A stretch of DNA of 52,411 nt, taken from Cytophagales bacterium. GTDB taxonomy: Bacteria; Bacteroidota; Bacteroidia; Cytophagales; Thermoflexibacteraceae. The translations under genes were made by a program, and so were the position numbers. Position 1 is the first letter of the stretch, and every line of letters begins with the position of its first letter. Positions 10,546 through 44,971 of the stretch are shown in pieces. Location: assembly GCA_947457925.1 (NCBI GenBank), contig CANGYA010000006.1, forward strand, positions 1 through 52,411, read 5' to 3'. Under the pieces are notes generated by a model. The model was not told the origin of the DNA, ran no database searches, and worked only from the letters and a program-made list of their open reading frames with translations.

Positions 10546-11201
10546 TTAATCTTCTTTTTTCTCCAATTCTTCTAATTTAGTTTTTATCGAATCTACAAAG
10601 TCTTTGAGGCTTTGGTTGTAGGGTAAATACTTTACTAAGTTTTTCATTTTCCTAAAATCTTGGCTTATTTTATCAAAATCAAGCCTTTCTCCTTTCAATA
10701 GATGTTTTAGTTTCTCTTTAGCATTGGCAGAAGAAACACTATCTTTTTTTTCTATAATTGTTAGACACCATGCCTCTATTTCCTCAATAGCAACAGCATA
10801 AAGTAATTTGTCTCTGTATATTTATTGTCTAACCATGAATTAATCAAATCTATTACTAATTTTCGCAACTCCTTACTGTAATTCTCATTGTTTTGCTTAG
10901 TAGGTTTTTGGAAAGGAAAATCTTGTTGTTCTATTTCTGCCGTATCTAAATGAACAATGACACAATCCGCTGCAAAAAATAAAAATGCCATTTCAAAATA
11001 ATATCGATAATCCTCTATACCCATGCAAGCCTTTTTTACCCCTTGAAAAGTACCAATAGTTGCATCATCAGGGCTACTTGCGTCTTTTTGCAAGGAGGGC
11101 TTTACAAAAAGAATATCACTCGAATCTATTTTAAAAGCCCTTAAAATGTTTTGAATTACAATTTGGTCTTCTGCACCCTCCGCAATAATAGCTACCCGCA
11201 T
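10546..11201 (-). pseudogene. TOPRIM-like (DUF4276-like) protein, frameshifted
   Basis: The first frame (11201 to a stop at 10776) begins MRVAIIAEGAEDQIVIQNIL, which resembles the acidic first strand of TOPRIM-type folds, and has VIVHLDTAEIEQQD, a D-x-D/E-like second motif. It breaks off near 10810. The -1 frame continues with YAVAIEEIEAWCLTI and runs to a TAA at 10546-10548. That EEIEAW segment is the kind seen in DUF4276-like proteins. Adding one base to the TTT run at 10807-10809 (AAA on the coding strand) joins both parts into a 218-aa protein; the span is 3n-1 bases, as expected for one missing base. It starts 16 bases after the AAA ATPase gene, so the two form an operon. A nuclease or effector role driven by the ATPase is an inference. 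Whether the break is real is open. Confidence 0.7.
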
Positions 11202-11217
11202 AAGTTTACAAGGTGAG

Positions 11218-12447
11218 TTAAAAGTTTTGAGAAATTGCCCCTAAAAAACCTCTTGTCCATAGTTCAGACAATTTATATTTTTCACCCATCTCATTTTTTA
11301 CATCAGGTTTTAGGTTGATGCGTCTTGTTTTGGTGTGTCCATTATCGTTTCTCCTCACCTCAAACAATCTTATTTCATCATCAAATAAATTTAGCCCATC
11401 TAAGATAGCAGGATTATGCGTTGTGATAAGCAACTGTTTATCATGTTCTTTGGCTAATTTACAGATTTCTGTCATTAAATATCTGCATAAATGAGGATTT
11501 AAGGCTGTTTCAATATTATCAATAGCAAAAAACTTAGGTGTTTTTTTGCTAATTAATAATGTCAAGTAAAATAAGATATGTAATACGCCTTCATTTACAT
11601 TTTCAGACGAGAAAATATTATCTTTTTTCAACATTAATTTATCTCTAAAAAATAATAAAGATTTGCTTTGACTAAGTTTATGTCCTTTGTACTTCAATTC
11701 ATCATTTTTATCTATAAAAAAGTCATCTAACCAACCTATAAAATAAGTATAAGACTTTAATTGTTTCATTTCCTCAATGTCTAATTCAGCTATCATACTA
11801 CCTAAATTCTCTCCATGTATGCCATTACGAGAATTAATAAACTCTGGAATCCCTCTTAATGATTGGGTATTTAACAAATAGATAAGATAATTATTCAAAA
11901 TATTGTACTCTTGGGTAAATGAAAAATCTTGCCTTTTCTTCATCTCCTCTATTATTTCTTGTTCTAATAATTGCTTAAACTCAGAACTATTTATAATTTG
12001 TCTTAATTCTTTCTGATTTAATTGCTCATCAAAAGATTTGGTTTTATCTGTGTTCTGAGCTAAAAAATTTTTAATGAAAAGGTCGATAGAAGTATTTTTC
12101 TTTAATTTTTTCCACTTACTATTTATATCATTTGGGTTATTAGGGTGTAAACTGCAATCTATAGTATTATTGTCATCAAACTTAAAATTTATCTCTATTG
12201 TTGGTTTCTTAGTTGTGCCAGCAAAAGAACTTATCATTAAAGAAGGTTTGGCTACTCGTATTCCTTTTGTATAAAGAATTTCTGCATCAATAGTCGTATA
12301 AGTTTCAGCTACACTCGCAAACCCCACCGCCTCCAAAATATTAGACTTACCACAACCATTTTCCCCAATAAATACATTCACACGACCTAATTCTATAGTA
12401 TCGTCTGCAATAGATTTAAAATTTTTAATAGTAATACTTTTTAGCAT
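11218..12447 (-). CDS. AAA/ABC-type ATPase, OLD/AbiL/PARIS-like
   Basis: 409 aa. The N-terminus MLKSITIKNFKSIADDTIEL and Walker A GENGCGKSN (residues 29-37) are those of AAA_15/AAA_21 SMC-like ATPases. The middle (about 110-260) is a helical insertion. The Walker B/signature half contains FFAIDNIETALNPHL, where DN replaces the usual DE, followed by LLITTHNPAILDGL with the switch His. In related two-gene systems (RloA/RloB, PARIS AriA/AriB, split OLD) such an ATPase guards or activates a TOPRIM-type effector; here the next gene is TOPRIM-like. This makes phage defence the leading inference, unproven by sequence alone. Chromosomal placement between mnmG and uvrA fits an inserted cassette. Confidence 0.82.
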   Translation of the reverse strand: MLKSITIKNFKSIADDTIELGRVNVFIGENGCGKSNILEAVGFASVAETYTTIDAEILYTKGIRVAKPSLMISSFAGTTKKPTIEINFKFDDNNTIDCSLHPNNPNDINSKWKKLKKNTSIDLFIKNFLAQNTDKTKSFDEQLNQKELRQIINSSEFKQLLEQEIIEEMKKRQDFSFTQEYNILNNYLIYLLNTQSLRGIPEFINSRNGIHGENLGSMIAELDIEEMKQLKSYTYFIGWLDDFFIDKNDELKYKGHKLSQSKSLLFFRDKLMLKKDNIFSSENVNEGVLHILFYLTLLISKKTPKFFAIDNIETALNPHLCRYLMTEICKLAKEHDKQLLITTHNPAILDGLNLFDDEIRLFEVRRNDNGHTKTRRINLKPDVKNEMGEKYKLSELWTRGFLGAISQNF

Positions 12448-12462
12448 AATAGTAAGTTTTTA

Positions 12463-23641: not shown

Positions 23642-24726
23642 ATGCCAATTAATCCTCTGTTAATCAAGGCTTTAAAAGCAAAAAAATGTGTACTTATTAT
23701 TGGTCATGATGCAGTTTTGCAACCCGATAATCAAACACCTATTTATCAAAAAGCCTTAGACGAAGTAAGTACCTTGTTTCCTGACAATGTTTTTTATCAA
23801 CAGGGAGATGATTTTATGTATATCCACCTAAATTATGTGATGAAGTCTATGACAATATTGCAGAAATTTATGAAAATATGCCTGCTCCCACCTTTTATGA
23901 ACAGTTGGTACAACTTCCATTTTTTATGCTCATCAATACTTCGCCAGATAGTTATTTGAAACAAATTTTTGACCAAAAAACTAGTCAAGGTTTTCAATAT
24001 CTTTATGATTATTACCAAGCACAAGTAGTACCTAATCCTGTGGATAAAACCAATGACGAAGCTCCACTACTCTATAATTTATTTGGCACAACGGACTTGC
24101 CTGTTTCTATGATTTTTTCTTATAACAGATTATTCAATTATATAAATTCTTTGATAGGGCTAAATTATAAACTTCACCCAAGTATGACTAGCCAAATTGA
24201 TATTGTGTTTGTGGGTTTTAAATTCAATAAAATTTATTTGAATATGATTTTGTGGTTGTTAAATTTTCAGGGTATCAATCGTAAAAAATTTGCGGGCGGA
24301 ACAGCTTATTCCAAAGCATTAGAATTTGTCAAAGAACAATTTTTAGTGGAATTTGTAAACGAAAATATACCTGCATTTATTGCAGAACTATACAAAGAAT
24401 GTGAAAAATTAGGTATTTTACGTACTTTCAAAGCACCCACTGTTCCATTGACAAATTATGAAAATAAGGGACATGAGGGAATAAGCAAACGCAAACAGGA
24501 ATTATTGGAGTGTTTGGGGGATGCAGAATATGCAAGTCTATTTGAAAAATTAGATGCAGTAGGCTTACAAACAACAACAACTGCCAATTTTAAATCTATG
24601 TTTATACAAAGTAAAACAGACCATTTATTTGATACACAATTAGAGATTTTTATTAAAAGTTTAGGTTGTGGTAAAAAATGTATGATTTGTAATTTACTGA
24701 TAATCAATTATTTAATGGAACACTGA
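23642..24726 (+). pseudogene. SIR2-like protein, frameshifted, 3' end in repeat
   Basis: Two overlapping frames make one gene. Frame A from ATG 23642 reads ALKAKKCVLIIGHDAVL, the N-terminal nucleotide-loop of SIR2-like domains found in defence proteins, and ends logically at QQGDDF. Frame B continues YPPKLCDEVYDNIAEIYENM, FFMLINTSPDSYL and PLLYNLFGTTDLPVSMIF, again typical of SIR2-like (SIR2_2-type) proteins. Adding one T to the TTTT run at 23812-23815 fuses both into 361 aa. The rest (about 175-361) contains GFKFNKIYLNMILWLLN and helices; a partner domain may be present. The last residues (LIINYLMEH) are encoded in the left arm of a palindromic element (24706-24826), so the native C-terminus may be lost. 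NAD-consuming antiphage activity is inference from the family. Confidence 0.75.
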
Positions 24727-24826
24727 TGATGCTGATGACACGGATATTTACTGTTTTTTTAGTTTATCCGTGATTATCTGCCAAATCCGTGTTATCCGTG
24801 TTCCATAAGGTATTGATAATCAAATA
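24706..24826. repeat. Inverted-repeat element with TGATAATCAA ends
   Basis: Outer parts TGATAATCAAT...ATGGAACAC (from 24708) and GTGTTCCAT...ATTGATAATCA (to about 24821) are imperfect inverted repeats. The interior is a set of TCCGTG motifs. The left arm overlaps the end of the SIR2-like gene and supplies its stop codon. A degenerate relative lies near 8378-8420. Confidence 0.6.
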
Positions 24827-24886
24827 TTTATTTATCGTATATTTTTTACCACTACCAAAGTTTATCAATATAAGCACCACTAAAAT

Positions 24887-24965
24887 ACCTCGGCAGTGGT
24901 TGAAAACCCTGCTGATAGTTTGTGTTAAATAACCATCGGCAGGGTCTATCGACCACTGCCGAGGT
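24887..24965. repeat. 79-bp double-stem palindrome
   Basis: Outer arms ACCTCGGCAGTGGT (24887-24900) and ACCACTGCCGAGGT (24952-24965) are perfect. Inner arms ACCCTGCTGAT (24906-24916) and ATCGGCAGGGT (24935-24945) have one mismatch. The stems are more GC-rich than the surroundings. It lies between the SIR2-like gene and the end of the PD-(D/E)XK-like gene, and may end - strand transcription. Confidence 0.7.
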
Positions 24966-24978
24966 TGTAAAATGAGTT

Positions 24979-25647
24979 TTATAGTATTAGTCTTGTAAAC
25001 AAAATATGCTTAAATTTACGTAAAATGGCAATAATTTTTAATAAATCATCTTTTTTAATTGATGAAAAAGATTCAGATATACAATACTCTTTGCCGTCCA
25101 TAATAATAAAACGCCAAGTTTCACCTACGATTTCCACCCCATACAAAGGAATTGGCTTTTCGTTTTTGACTTGCCCTATCAAAAAAGCCTCAATCAGTTG
25201 TGCCATCGAGTCGCCAGATGGTTTTTTATGAGGTTTGTACTCCTGAAAGTGAAAATAAGGATTTTGGTGCAAGTCTAAATAGCCTTTTGCTAACATAAAA
25301 TCAGATTTTACTTTGAGTTGAATACCTTCTACGGTTGCCCATATCAGTTTATCAAAAAAACCAATTATTCCATTTTCATCTTTGAGATGCCCCAACTCTA
25401 AAATAAAGGCAATAAACTTCATTTTTAGGTCTTCTTCTGACCAACCAGCTATTTTATCAGAGGCTTCATTAAGTTTTCTATCAAAGAGCTGTTCCTCTAA
25501 AGCATCTAGTTGAGGAAAATCTACATCAAGCCACTCTCGCATTAAGGGTGTATGTTTTGTAATCCTTTTGAGATTAAACTGTAAAACCAATTCGGCTTCT
25601 GACCAATTTTTGCCTTCGTCTTCATCTGTTTTTTTTCGCCTTGCCAT
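24979..25647 (-). CDS. PD-(D/E)XK-like protein, function unknown
   Basis: 222 aa. Residues 121-138 read KGYLDLHQNPYFHFQEYK: an Asp (D125) followed by E136-x-K138, the spacing and hydrophobic context of a PD-(D/E)XK nuclease core. The C-terminal part (GVEIVGETWRFIIMDGKEYC, then ISESFSSIKKDDLLKIIAIL) recalls a group of Bacteroidetes hypothetical proteins that are often solitary. No signal peptide. The N-terminus is basic (MARRKK). Possibly a restriction-like or repair-related nuclease; this is a motif-based inference. A TATTTTTG box at 25665-25672 on the - strand is a plausible -7 element. Confidence 0.65.
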   Translation of the reverse strand: MARRKKTDEDEGKNWSEAELVLQFNLKRITKHTPLMREWLDVDFPQLDALEEQLFDRKLNEASDKIAGWSEEDLKMKFIAFILELGHLKDENGIIGFFDKLIWATVEGIQLKVKSDFMLAKGYLDLHQNPYFHFQEYKPHKKPSGDSMAQLIEAFLIGQVKNEKPIPLYGVEIVGETWRFIIMDGKEYCISESFSSIKKDDLLKIIAILRKFKHILFTRLIL

Positions 25648-25984: not shown

Positions 25985-26191
25985 TTACCAATTAAGCAAC
26001 GGCTTATCATTTTGGCGAACTGCCGTATAAAAATCATCAGTTTCCCACTCCGATACTTGGGGCAAGGTTTTTCGGGTGGGGCTTAGGGCTGCCTTTTGCT
26101 TTCGTTTGGCTAACAAAAAATCTATAAAAATCCTTACCTCGTCTTTTTCAGACAAGTTTAAAAGTGAGTATTTTAACAATAGTTCTTTCAT
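25985..26191 (-). CDS. Antitoxin-like small protein (DUF2281-type)
   Basis: 68 aa. The N-terminus (LLLKYSLLNLSEKDEVRIFIDFLLAKRK) has the helical LSE..EV..FIDFL pattern of DUF2281-like antitoxins (quoted: LSEKDEVRIFIDFLLAKRK). The C-terminus is basic then acidic, as for toxin-binding tails. Its ATG overlaps the stop of the PIN gene by four bases (ATGA), so it is translationally coupled to it. Order is toxin first, antitoxin second. If the PIN gene is dead, this is an orphan antitoxin. Confidence 0.65.
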   Translation of the reverse strand: MKELLLKYSLLNLSEKDEVRIFIDFLLAKRKQKAALSPTRKTLPQVSEWETDDFYTAVRQNDKPLLNW

Positions 26192-26568
26192 ATAATTTTT
26201 AAGTTTTCTATTCGTTCAAAATCCTTTCGGTTCAAAGTCATCAACTCCAAATCGTGTACCATTGCCGTTGCTGCTATGTAAATATCATTGTTGCTAATCA
26301 ACTGATTTCGTTTTCGCAAGTCCTGAAAAATACGAGTAGCCATTTCTGCCACTTCCTCCGAAAAATCTAAGACATTCAACGCCTCTTTTAGCGTATTTAC
26401 ATCTTGACGTTTGGTGTCGTCAGTTGCACCCGCCAATAATTCGTACAAAGAAATAATTGAGATATACGCATCTGTTTCCTCATATTTTTGCCCAAAAGCT
26501 GTATTTTACTTATTTTTTGCTCTCAAATATTCTATTAGGCAAGAGGTATCGAATAGTATTTTGGGCAT
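26188..26568 (-). pseudogene. VapC-like PIN-domain toxin with in-frame stop at codon 21
   Basis: From an ATG at 26568 the frame reads MPKILFDTSCLIEYLRAKNK, then a TAA (26506-26508), then NTAFGQKYEETDAYISIISL and on to the end in the same frame. Total 126 codons, the normal PIN toxin length. The four acidic PIN residues are all present: D of FDTS, E of LYELLAG, D of NNDIYIAATA and D of NRKDFERI. The first lies before the stop, so a downstream TTG start (26448) would give an 86-aa protein lacking it. PIN toxins are RNases. The single nonsense codon may reflect selection against the toxin; readthrough is possible but unsupported. Confidence 0.8.
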
Positions 26569-44329: not shown

Positions 44330-44772
44330 TTAAACATCTATCAACTCATCTCCTTGTTCCAACATTCCTGCTACTTCATATACTATTACGCCCTTACTAC
44401 TCACTTTGAGGTTCAACATTCCTTTTTCCTGCATTTTATTCAATAGTTTGTCAGCTTCTGAGGCACTTAATAAAGTAGTAACAGAACTTGCTTGAGCTAC
44501 GGTAATTCGTCCACCACTTTTCAAAGCTAAATCCCAAATCAATTTTTTCTTTTCATATAACCTTTGTTCTTTTAAATTCTTTTGGGCAGTATAAACTAAC
44601 CATACACCCGAAACTACAGGCAAAAACCCATAAAAAACACCAAAGAAAGAAAACTTGCTAATGTTTCTTTCCCTTCATTGAGCTGTACGACTCCGCCAAA
44701 AGGAAGAAAAGCACCCAATACAATGAATCCGATACCACAATAGTAGCGTAAATGTTGCGAAAGTTTCATCAT
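44330..44772 (-). pseudogene. Two-TM protein with winged-helix-like tail, frameshifted
   Basis: From ATG 44772 the frame reads KLSQHLRYYCGIGFIVLGAF, then FLSLVFF, and stops. The -1 frame continues YGFLPVVSGVWLVYTAQKNL, then EKKKLIWDLALKSGGRITVA and helices to the stop at 44330. Adding one base to the six-A run (44632-44637 on +) joins them into 147 aa; the span is 3n-1. Two membrane segments lie at about 12-32 and 47-68. The tail (ALKSGGRITVAQASSVTTLL then KLLNKMQEKGML) looks like a helix-turn-helix fold. I do not know the family's function. Confidence 0.7.
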
Positions 44773-44806
44773 TGAAAAATGATTGTAAAAAATAAAGCAT
44801 TGTACC

Positions 44807-44971
44807 TGTAGAACGGACTTCAGTCCGTTTTTATATATTATTAGGTAAGTAAGTGGAAATAACTAAAGTGCATTCGCCTTTAGGCGAATAACTTGATAGT
44901 CAATGTATTCGCCTAAAGGTGAATGTACTATTTTCTTGTCCGAATAGCATTGGATTAAAGTCCGTTCTACA
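44807..44971. repeat. Composite nested palindrome, 165 bp
   Basis: Outer arms TGTAGAACGGACTTCAGTCC (from 44807 to 44827) and their complement at 44951-44971 match at 18 of 21, differing by transitions. Inside lie inverted ATTCGCC palindromes (44871-44890 and 44906-44925). Thus one palindrome family sits inside another. Confidence 0.7.

Follow-up and report, generated by a model that had tools for sequence, protein, structure and literature searches.

A gene on the plus strand of the window (the whole 52,411-nucleotide stretch of Cytophagales DNA that was analysed) was found at 23642-24726, divided between two reading frames. Frame A (23642-23815) began with the ATG at 23642 and its translation (MPINPLLIKALKAKKCVLIIGHDAVL...QQGDD) aligned with homologues as a SIR2-like N-terminus of about 58 aa, which comprised the first strand and a degenerate glycine loop with IIGHDAV where catalytic sirtuins have GAGxS. 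Frame B contained 304 open codons, from 23812 to 24723, and homologue alignment identified its 23815-24723 part, also on the plus strand, as the remaining protein with the SIR2-like core. An ATG-started ORF lay within this frame at 23878-24726, the gene stop being 24724-24726, and its motifs read LINTSPD in place of TTNYD and LLYNLFG in place of KLHG. As a sequence-only reading of this DNA had proposed, the frames joined at a run of four T (23812-23815, plus strand) with a net change of -1 base, and the SIR2-like text that it had quoted from both frames was present in the translations.

Full-length unbroken homologues from the same taxonomic family (L010, L011-L014 and L016-L018) were obtained by searching with the 23878 ORF. 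Their ORFs measured 353-390 aa and each was intact in a single frame. The nearest relative was L010 (37%, E 1e-39), and L016 was a paralogue in the same genome, on contig C212. Because frame B aligned along its full length with unbroken homologues (L010, E 1.2e-39), its 304 open codons were not a chance occurrence. These results confirmed that frames A and B at 23642-24726 belong to a single SIR2-fold protein whose frame is interrupted once, near 23812-23815. All homologues being single-frame, with the junction unbroken in every one that was read, the break is peculiar to the window copy. Apart from this one frame lesion, the 361-codon gene was open, with no in-frame stops. A Phe tRNA could re-pair on T-TTT after a one-base slip, so that programmed -1 frameshifting at TTTT would yield the full protein, but the classical X-XXY-YYZ heptamer was absent and the homologues with full ORFs used a single frame without a break, which makes this mechanism highly improbable. 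A truncated SIR2-like relative of 201 aa with a foreign-looking C-terminus was also observed (L019, 1237-1842 of G003:C171), representing another broken copy of the family.

The joined window protein matched Pfam SIR2_2 weakly and below the cut-off (E 0.009), unlike its homologues, which scored above it; the PADLOC model PD-T4-10_B gave E 0.011. A search of solved structures with a sequence profile returned no SIR2, although fold comparison found one. For this comparison, nine homologues were aligned and L016 was folded as the representative (pLDDT 74, pTM 0.65). Foldseek ranked DSR2 and ThsA at the top (E 3e-8 to 5e-8; best 3.4e-8), and residues 1-268 of the model reached Z scores of 20.4 against BcThsA and 20.1 against DSR2, compared with about 13 for classical sirtuins. 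Since the predicted L016 structure matches DSR2 and ThsA far above classical sirtuins, the SIR2 fold can be considered established for the family at the level of the model, and the SIR2 assignment of the sequence-only reading was borne out (L016 against ThsA/DSR2, Z about 20). Residues 1-268 therefore have the same fold as ThsA, DSR2 and Avs5 (SIR2_2, PF13289).

The same reading had suggested an NAD-depleting role. In order to address the active site, we read the motif columns in 15 family members, six of them from other families of the order, on the basis of a weak profile comparison, these 15 sequences and the fold. Profile-profile alignment placed SPD on NYD and NIFG on KLHG and scored weakly overall (prob 54, E 1.3e-4). 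The HG-motif His was replaced in 15/15 members (F in six, L in five, M in two, A and C in one each), as was the Tyr of TTNYD (P in 14, F in one). The catalytic Asn was kept in three of the 15 and lost in 12 (S in four, T in three, A and L in two each, H in one), and the Asp of TTNxD was retained in 14/15. The glycine loop was degenerate, with LGP, LGH and similar sequences for GAGxS. The window protein itself reads NTSPD at the TTNxD position and lacks the Asn of defence sirtuin NADases, and the catalytic His of these enzymes (ThsA H152, DSR2 H171) was missing from all 15 members. T(T/L)NYD and HG were retained by the order's canonical SIR2_2 proteins, and the family differs from ThsA, DSR2 and Avs5 in that GAGxS, TTNYD and HG are degenerate throughout. 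The pocket consists of N112, Y113, D114 and H152 in ThsA and of N133, Y134, D135 and H171 in DSR2, which is crippled by mutating any of Tyr, Asp or His (PMC11263360), and the N110A mutation abolished Avs5 immunity (PMC12931631). The loss of the His alone is no proof of inactivity, because PaAvs5, which has NG for HG and no HG His, still hydrolyses NAD (PMC12931631). That precedent, together with the Asp kept in 14 members, the Asn kept in three and the match of PADLOC ThsA models to L119 and L122, would be compatible with an NADase whose active site is altered and with the protein being an NAD-depleting effector. We nevertheless consider this unlikely, given the degenerate loop, Tyr and His, the Asn lost in 12 members, and the DSR2 and Avs5 mutants. 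As the GAGxS loop, His and Tyr were all lost, in most members along with Asn, canonical NAD hydrolysis by the family appears unlikely from these alignments, and the proposed NAD-depleting role found no support.

The C-termini of the family were exchangeable among at least four kinds. Pfam EAD11 tails were present in L011, L012, L013, L018 and L119. EAD7 tails were found in L016 and L017 (E 2-3e-6, below the curated cut-off) and weakly in L014. L122-L124 carried TIR tails, and L120 and L121 other tails. The fourth kind, which we call EADx, was carried by the window protein and L010, in the position where direct relatives have Pfam EAD7 or EAD11. EADx was first seen as partial matches, which fell on the C-terminal end of a Roc-COR GTPase (L015) and on a small ORF before a NACHT gene (L020). 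A profile was then built from 13 copies, which together with the predicted fold delimited a C-terminal four-helix adaptor domain of about 60 aa in the window protein (24484-24663, plus strand). The profile matched no family in Pfam (EADs included), NCBIfam or PADLOC and, conversely, no Pfam EAD model hit any of the 13 members at E<=10. The EADx model was a 60-aa four-helix bundle (pLDDT 88.8), for which neither PDB nor BFVD yielded a significant structural match, a result that does not imply a new fold.

Within the order, 27 of 390 genomes carried EADx, with more than 100 hits and up to 16 copies per genome; a phylum-wide sample contained it solely in the window's own genome. Besides L015, it formed the C-terminus of Roc-COR GTPases in L059, L061 and C123, the last being a 793-aa LRR-Roc-COR protein of the window's own genome. 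A ParA-like KGGVGR ATPase (L062) likewise ended in EADx, TPR proteins (L065 and L066) began with it, and it adjoined KGGVGR ATPases in L072 and L078. Another contig of the own genome, C119, contained an N-terminal EADx cut by the contig end (L087, 1-156, minus strand). EADs are defined by such a distribution pattern (Kaur et al. 2020, PMC7159879). Like them (PMC7159879, PMC8195603), EADx is small, helical and non-enzymatic, occurs in several copies per genome at either the N- or the C-terminus, and is joined both to core NTPases and to effector-like or signalling proteins, but unlike them it lacks a match to any Pfam model. This distribution suggests that EADx is an effector-associated (death-like) adaptor, and it may equal a published EAD without a Pfam model, since a 2021 paper counts 12 EADs (PMC8195603). 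By analogy, we infer that EADx would dock homotypically.

The 3′ end of the window gene was modified by a mobile element. Positions 24664-24856 were occupied by a 193-bp IS1-family MITE with GGTTGTGGTAAAAAATGTATGATT-type terminal inverted repeats, assigned from its copies and from autonomous relatives (L052 and L053). The 22-bp terminus of the MITE was found at 69 sites (reversed control, 0), and this search exposed elements of 804 bp (C168) and 816 bp (C9), which were single-ORF IS copies; the 804-bp element encodes an IS1 transposase (DDE_Tnp_IS1, E 3e-29). Elsewhere the genome had about 40 related MITE copies, several of them at contig ends. The RNA fold of the MITE had an energy of -75.7 kcal/mol (z -10.9). 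An 8-bp duplication, AAAGTTTA, flanked the element, its left copy (24656-24663) encoding K-S-L, the end of EADx, and its right copy (24857-24864) being a perfect match. IS1-family target-site duplications are 8-10 bp long. Duplications elsewhere were of 8 bp in L032 and 13 bp in L034, and the words at MITE flanks were longer than those obtained after swapping partners (fraction 0.0015). With terminal repeats in common with the 804- and 816-bp IS copies and a target duplication, the element is an ordinary IS1-family MITE. A SIR2-like match at C81 was discarded as chance, being an alpha-amylase-like ORF that matched only by the MITE tail.

The perfect duplication substantiated the earlier proposal that a repeat had inserted into the 3′ end of the gene. 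The stop codon had been placed in the left arm of this repeat and does lie in its left half, but the element is larger than the 24706-24826 then assigned to it. Its left end is translated on the plus strand into a 20-residue tail, GCGKKCMICNLLIINYLMEH, followed by the stop (24664-24726). When the flanks were rejoined at AAAGTTTA, the protein ended in ...LEIFIKSLSI*, the presumed remnant of the native 3′ end being TCA ATA TAA (S, I and stop; 24865-24873, plus strand). The native C-terminus, which had been thought to be replaced, was thus hardly touched, with only the two residues SI exchanged for GCGKKCMICNLLIINYLMEH. Because the insertion lies two codons before this putative native stop, the MITE only lengthens the tail and, as judged from the sequence, the C-terminal domain is whole. 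Directly after the MITE there was a second, unrelated palindromic repeat (24886-24966; CCTCGGCAGTGG...CCACTGCCGAGG), with partial copies at roughly 15-20 other places in the genome. The neighbouring minus-strand genes included a 222-aa protein (24982-25647) with a PD-(D/E)xK-like PADLOC match (E 2e-5) and no Pfam match found, and a small ORF plus a PIN-domain ORF (25985-26448) resembling a VapBC-type toxin-antitoxin pair.

An nSTAND1 ATPase gene adjoined the SIR2-like gene in L054 (C212, own genome) and L018, according to Pfam, and in L119-L124 by clear sequence likeness (YPGxxPF...FFGR...). Relatives thus usually appear to lie beside an nSTAND1 ATPase. The C212 locus (L054, 1354-8208) was a complete operon of an EAD7 protein, the intact SIR2-like-EAD7 paralogue, an nSTAND1 ATPase and a long LRR protein, and constitutes a candidate conflict system. 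No nSTAND1 or other NTPase gene was seen beside the window gene or L010, and the only strong nSTAND1 of the own genome was the one on C212.

The window contained two further single-base frame breaks, both on the minus strand (10549-11240 and 44333-44862) and one falling within a T run. The first divided a small protein into two pieces (10549-10821 and 10779-11240) adjoining an AAA_21/AAA_15 ATPase gene (11221-12459), with which we take it to form an OLD/RloA-like pair. The second, at the T run, separated a small membrane protein into two frames (44333-44674 and 44617-44862). Such additional breaks in the same 52 kb make a sequencing or assembly error plausible. The gene would then be intact in the organism and the MITE-lengthened protein made and working, as is also suggested by the whole EADx domain and by the isolation of this single lesion among 361 codons that are otherwise open; we hold this tentatively, at slightly less than an even chance, as the breaks sit in dispensable-looking genes and the ligA- and mnmG-like genes of the window are open. 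That all three breaks affect dispensable-looking genes is what decay predicts. A true recent loss of function, in which a decaying conflict gene acquired a frameshift and a MITE insertion, would be consistent with two independent lesions in one gene, its orphan location, where no NTPase partner gene is present, the frequent loss of conflict genes and the existence of the truncated L019. The presence of one frame lesion only, with no in-frame stops, and a MITE that disrupts no domain argue against it, so that it is a serious possibility falling just short of an even one. Among the GTDB contigs scanned for the same species, only the source of L010 (a Cytophagales MAG) was recovered and no second genome.

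Altogether, we propose that the window gene is probably a non-catalytic SIR2-fold adaptor or effector-carrier of an NLR-like anti-phage network; the loss of NADase activity and the role in defence are what we infer. Its SIR2-like domain would serve as a nucleotide-binding or oligomerising platform and not as an NADase, and EADx would dock like-with-like onto EADx at the ends of NTPase or GTPase switches encoded elsewhere. Candidate switches in the own genome would be the LRR-Roc-COR GTPase on C123 and the N-terminal EADx ORF on C119. Such action in trans would be the simplest reading, because neither the window gene nor L010 adjoins an nSTAND1 and the only strong nSTAND1 lies on C212. The window copy has a single frame break, and the MITE adds a 20-residue tail to it, with the domain apparently retained.

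Avs5 combines SIR2 and a STAND ATPase in one protein, whereas the coupling proposed here would be between separate genes, and the family has small C-terminal adaptors and not the SLOG, STAND or sensor domains of ThsA, DSR2 and Avs5. At least 24 variable domains are reported at the C-termini of prokaryotic LRR-AP-GTPases (Roc-COR; PMC8195603). EADx occupies this variable position in C123, L059, L061 and L015, and differs from the fused effectors of such conflict systems in being, putatively, a docking domain. The SAMD9 family (PMC5445408) likewise has a variant SIR2-like domain and a STAND-like NTPase, with DEATH-superfamily adaptors in some animals, but all in one large protein that also contains AlbA and OB folds, whereas the family described here consists of small separate proteins. 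The single window copy is ordinary, a modest curiosity, but the family behind it seems to form a branch of NLR-like immunity in bacteria that has yet to be described. More specifically, but tentatively and with a little less than even confidence, it could be an undescribed two-part NLR-like module of Bacteroidota, in which a non-catalytic SIR2 platform with swappable C-terminal plugs (EAD7, EAD11, the new EAD and TIR) is switched by nSTAND1 in cis or, via EADx, by Roc-COR or other NTPases in trans. SIR2 domains in bacterial defence are usually taken as NADases. If our proposal is true, a family that keeps the fold, has lost the catalytic residues and exchanges TIR and death-like tails would be a bacterial counterpart of the catalytically silent scaffolds in animal immunity, and EADx, with more than 100 hits in one order, would provide a handle for pairing sensors with effectors outside shared operons.
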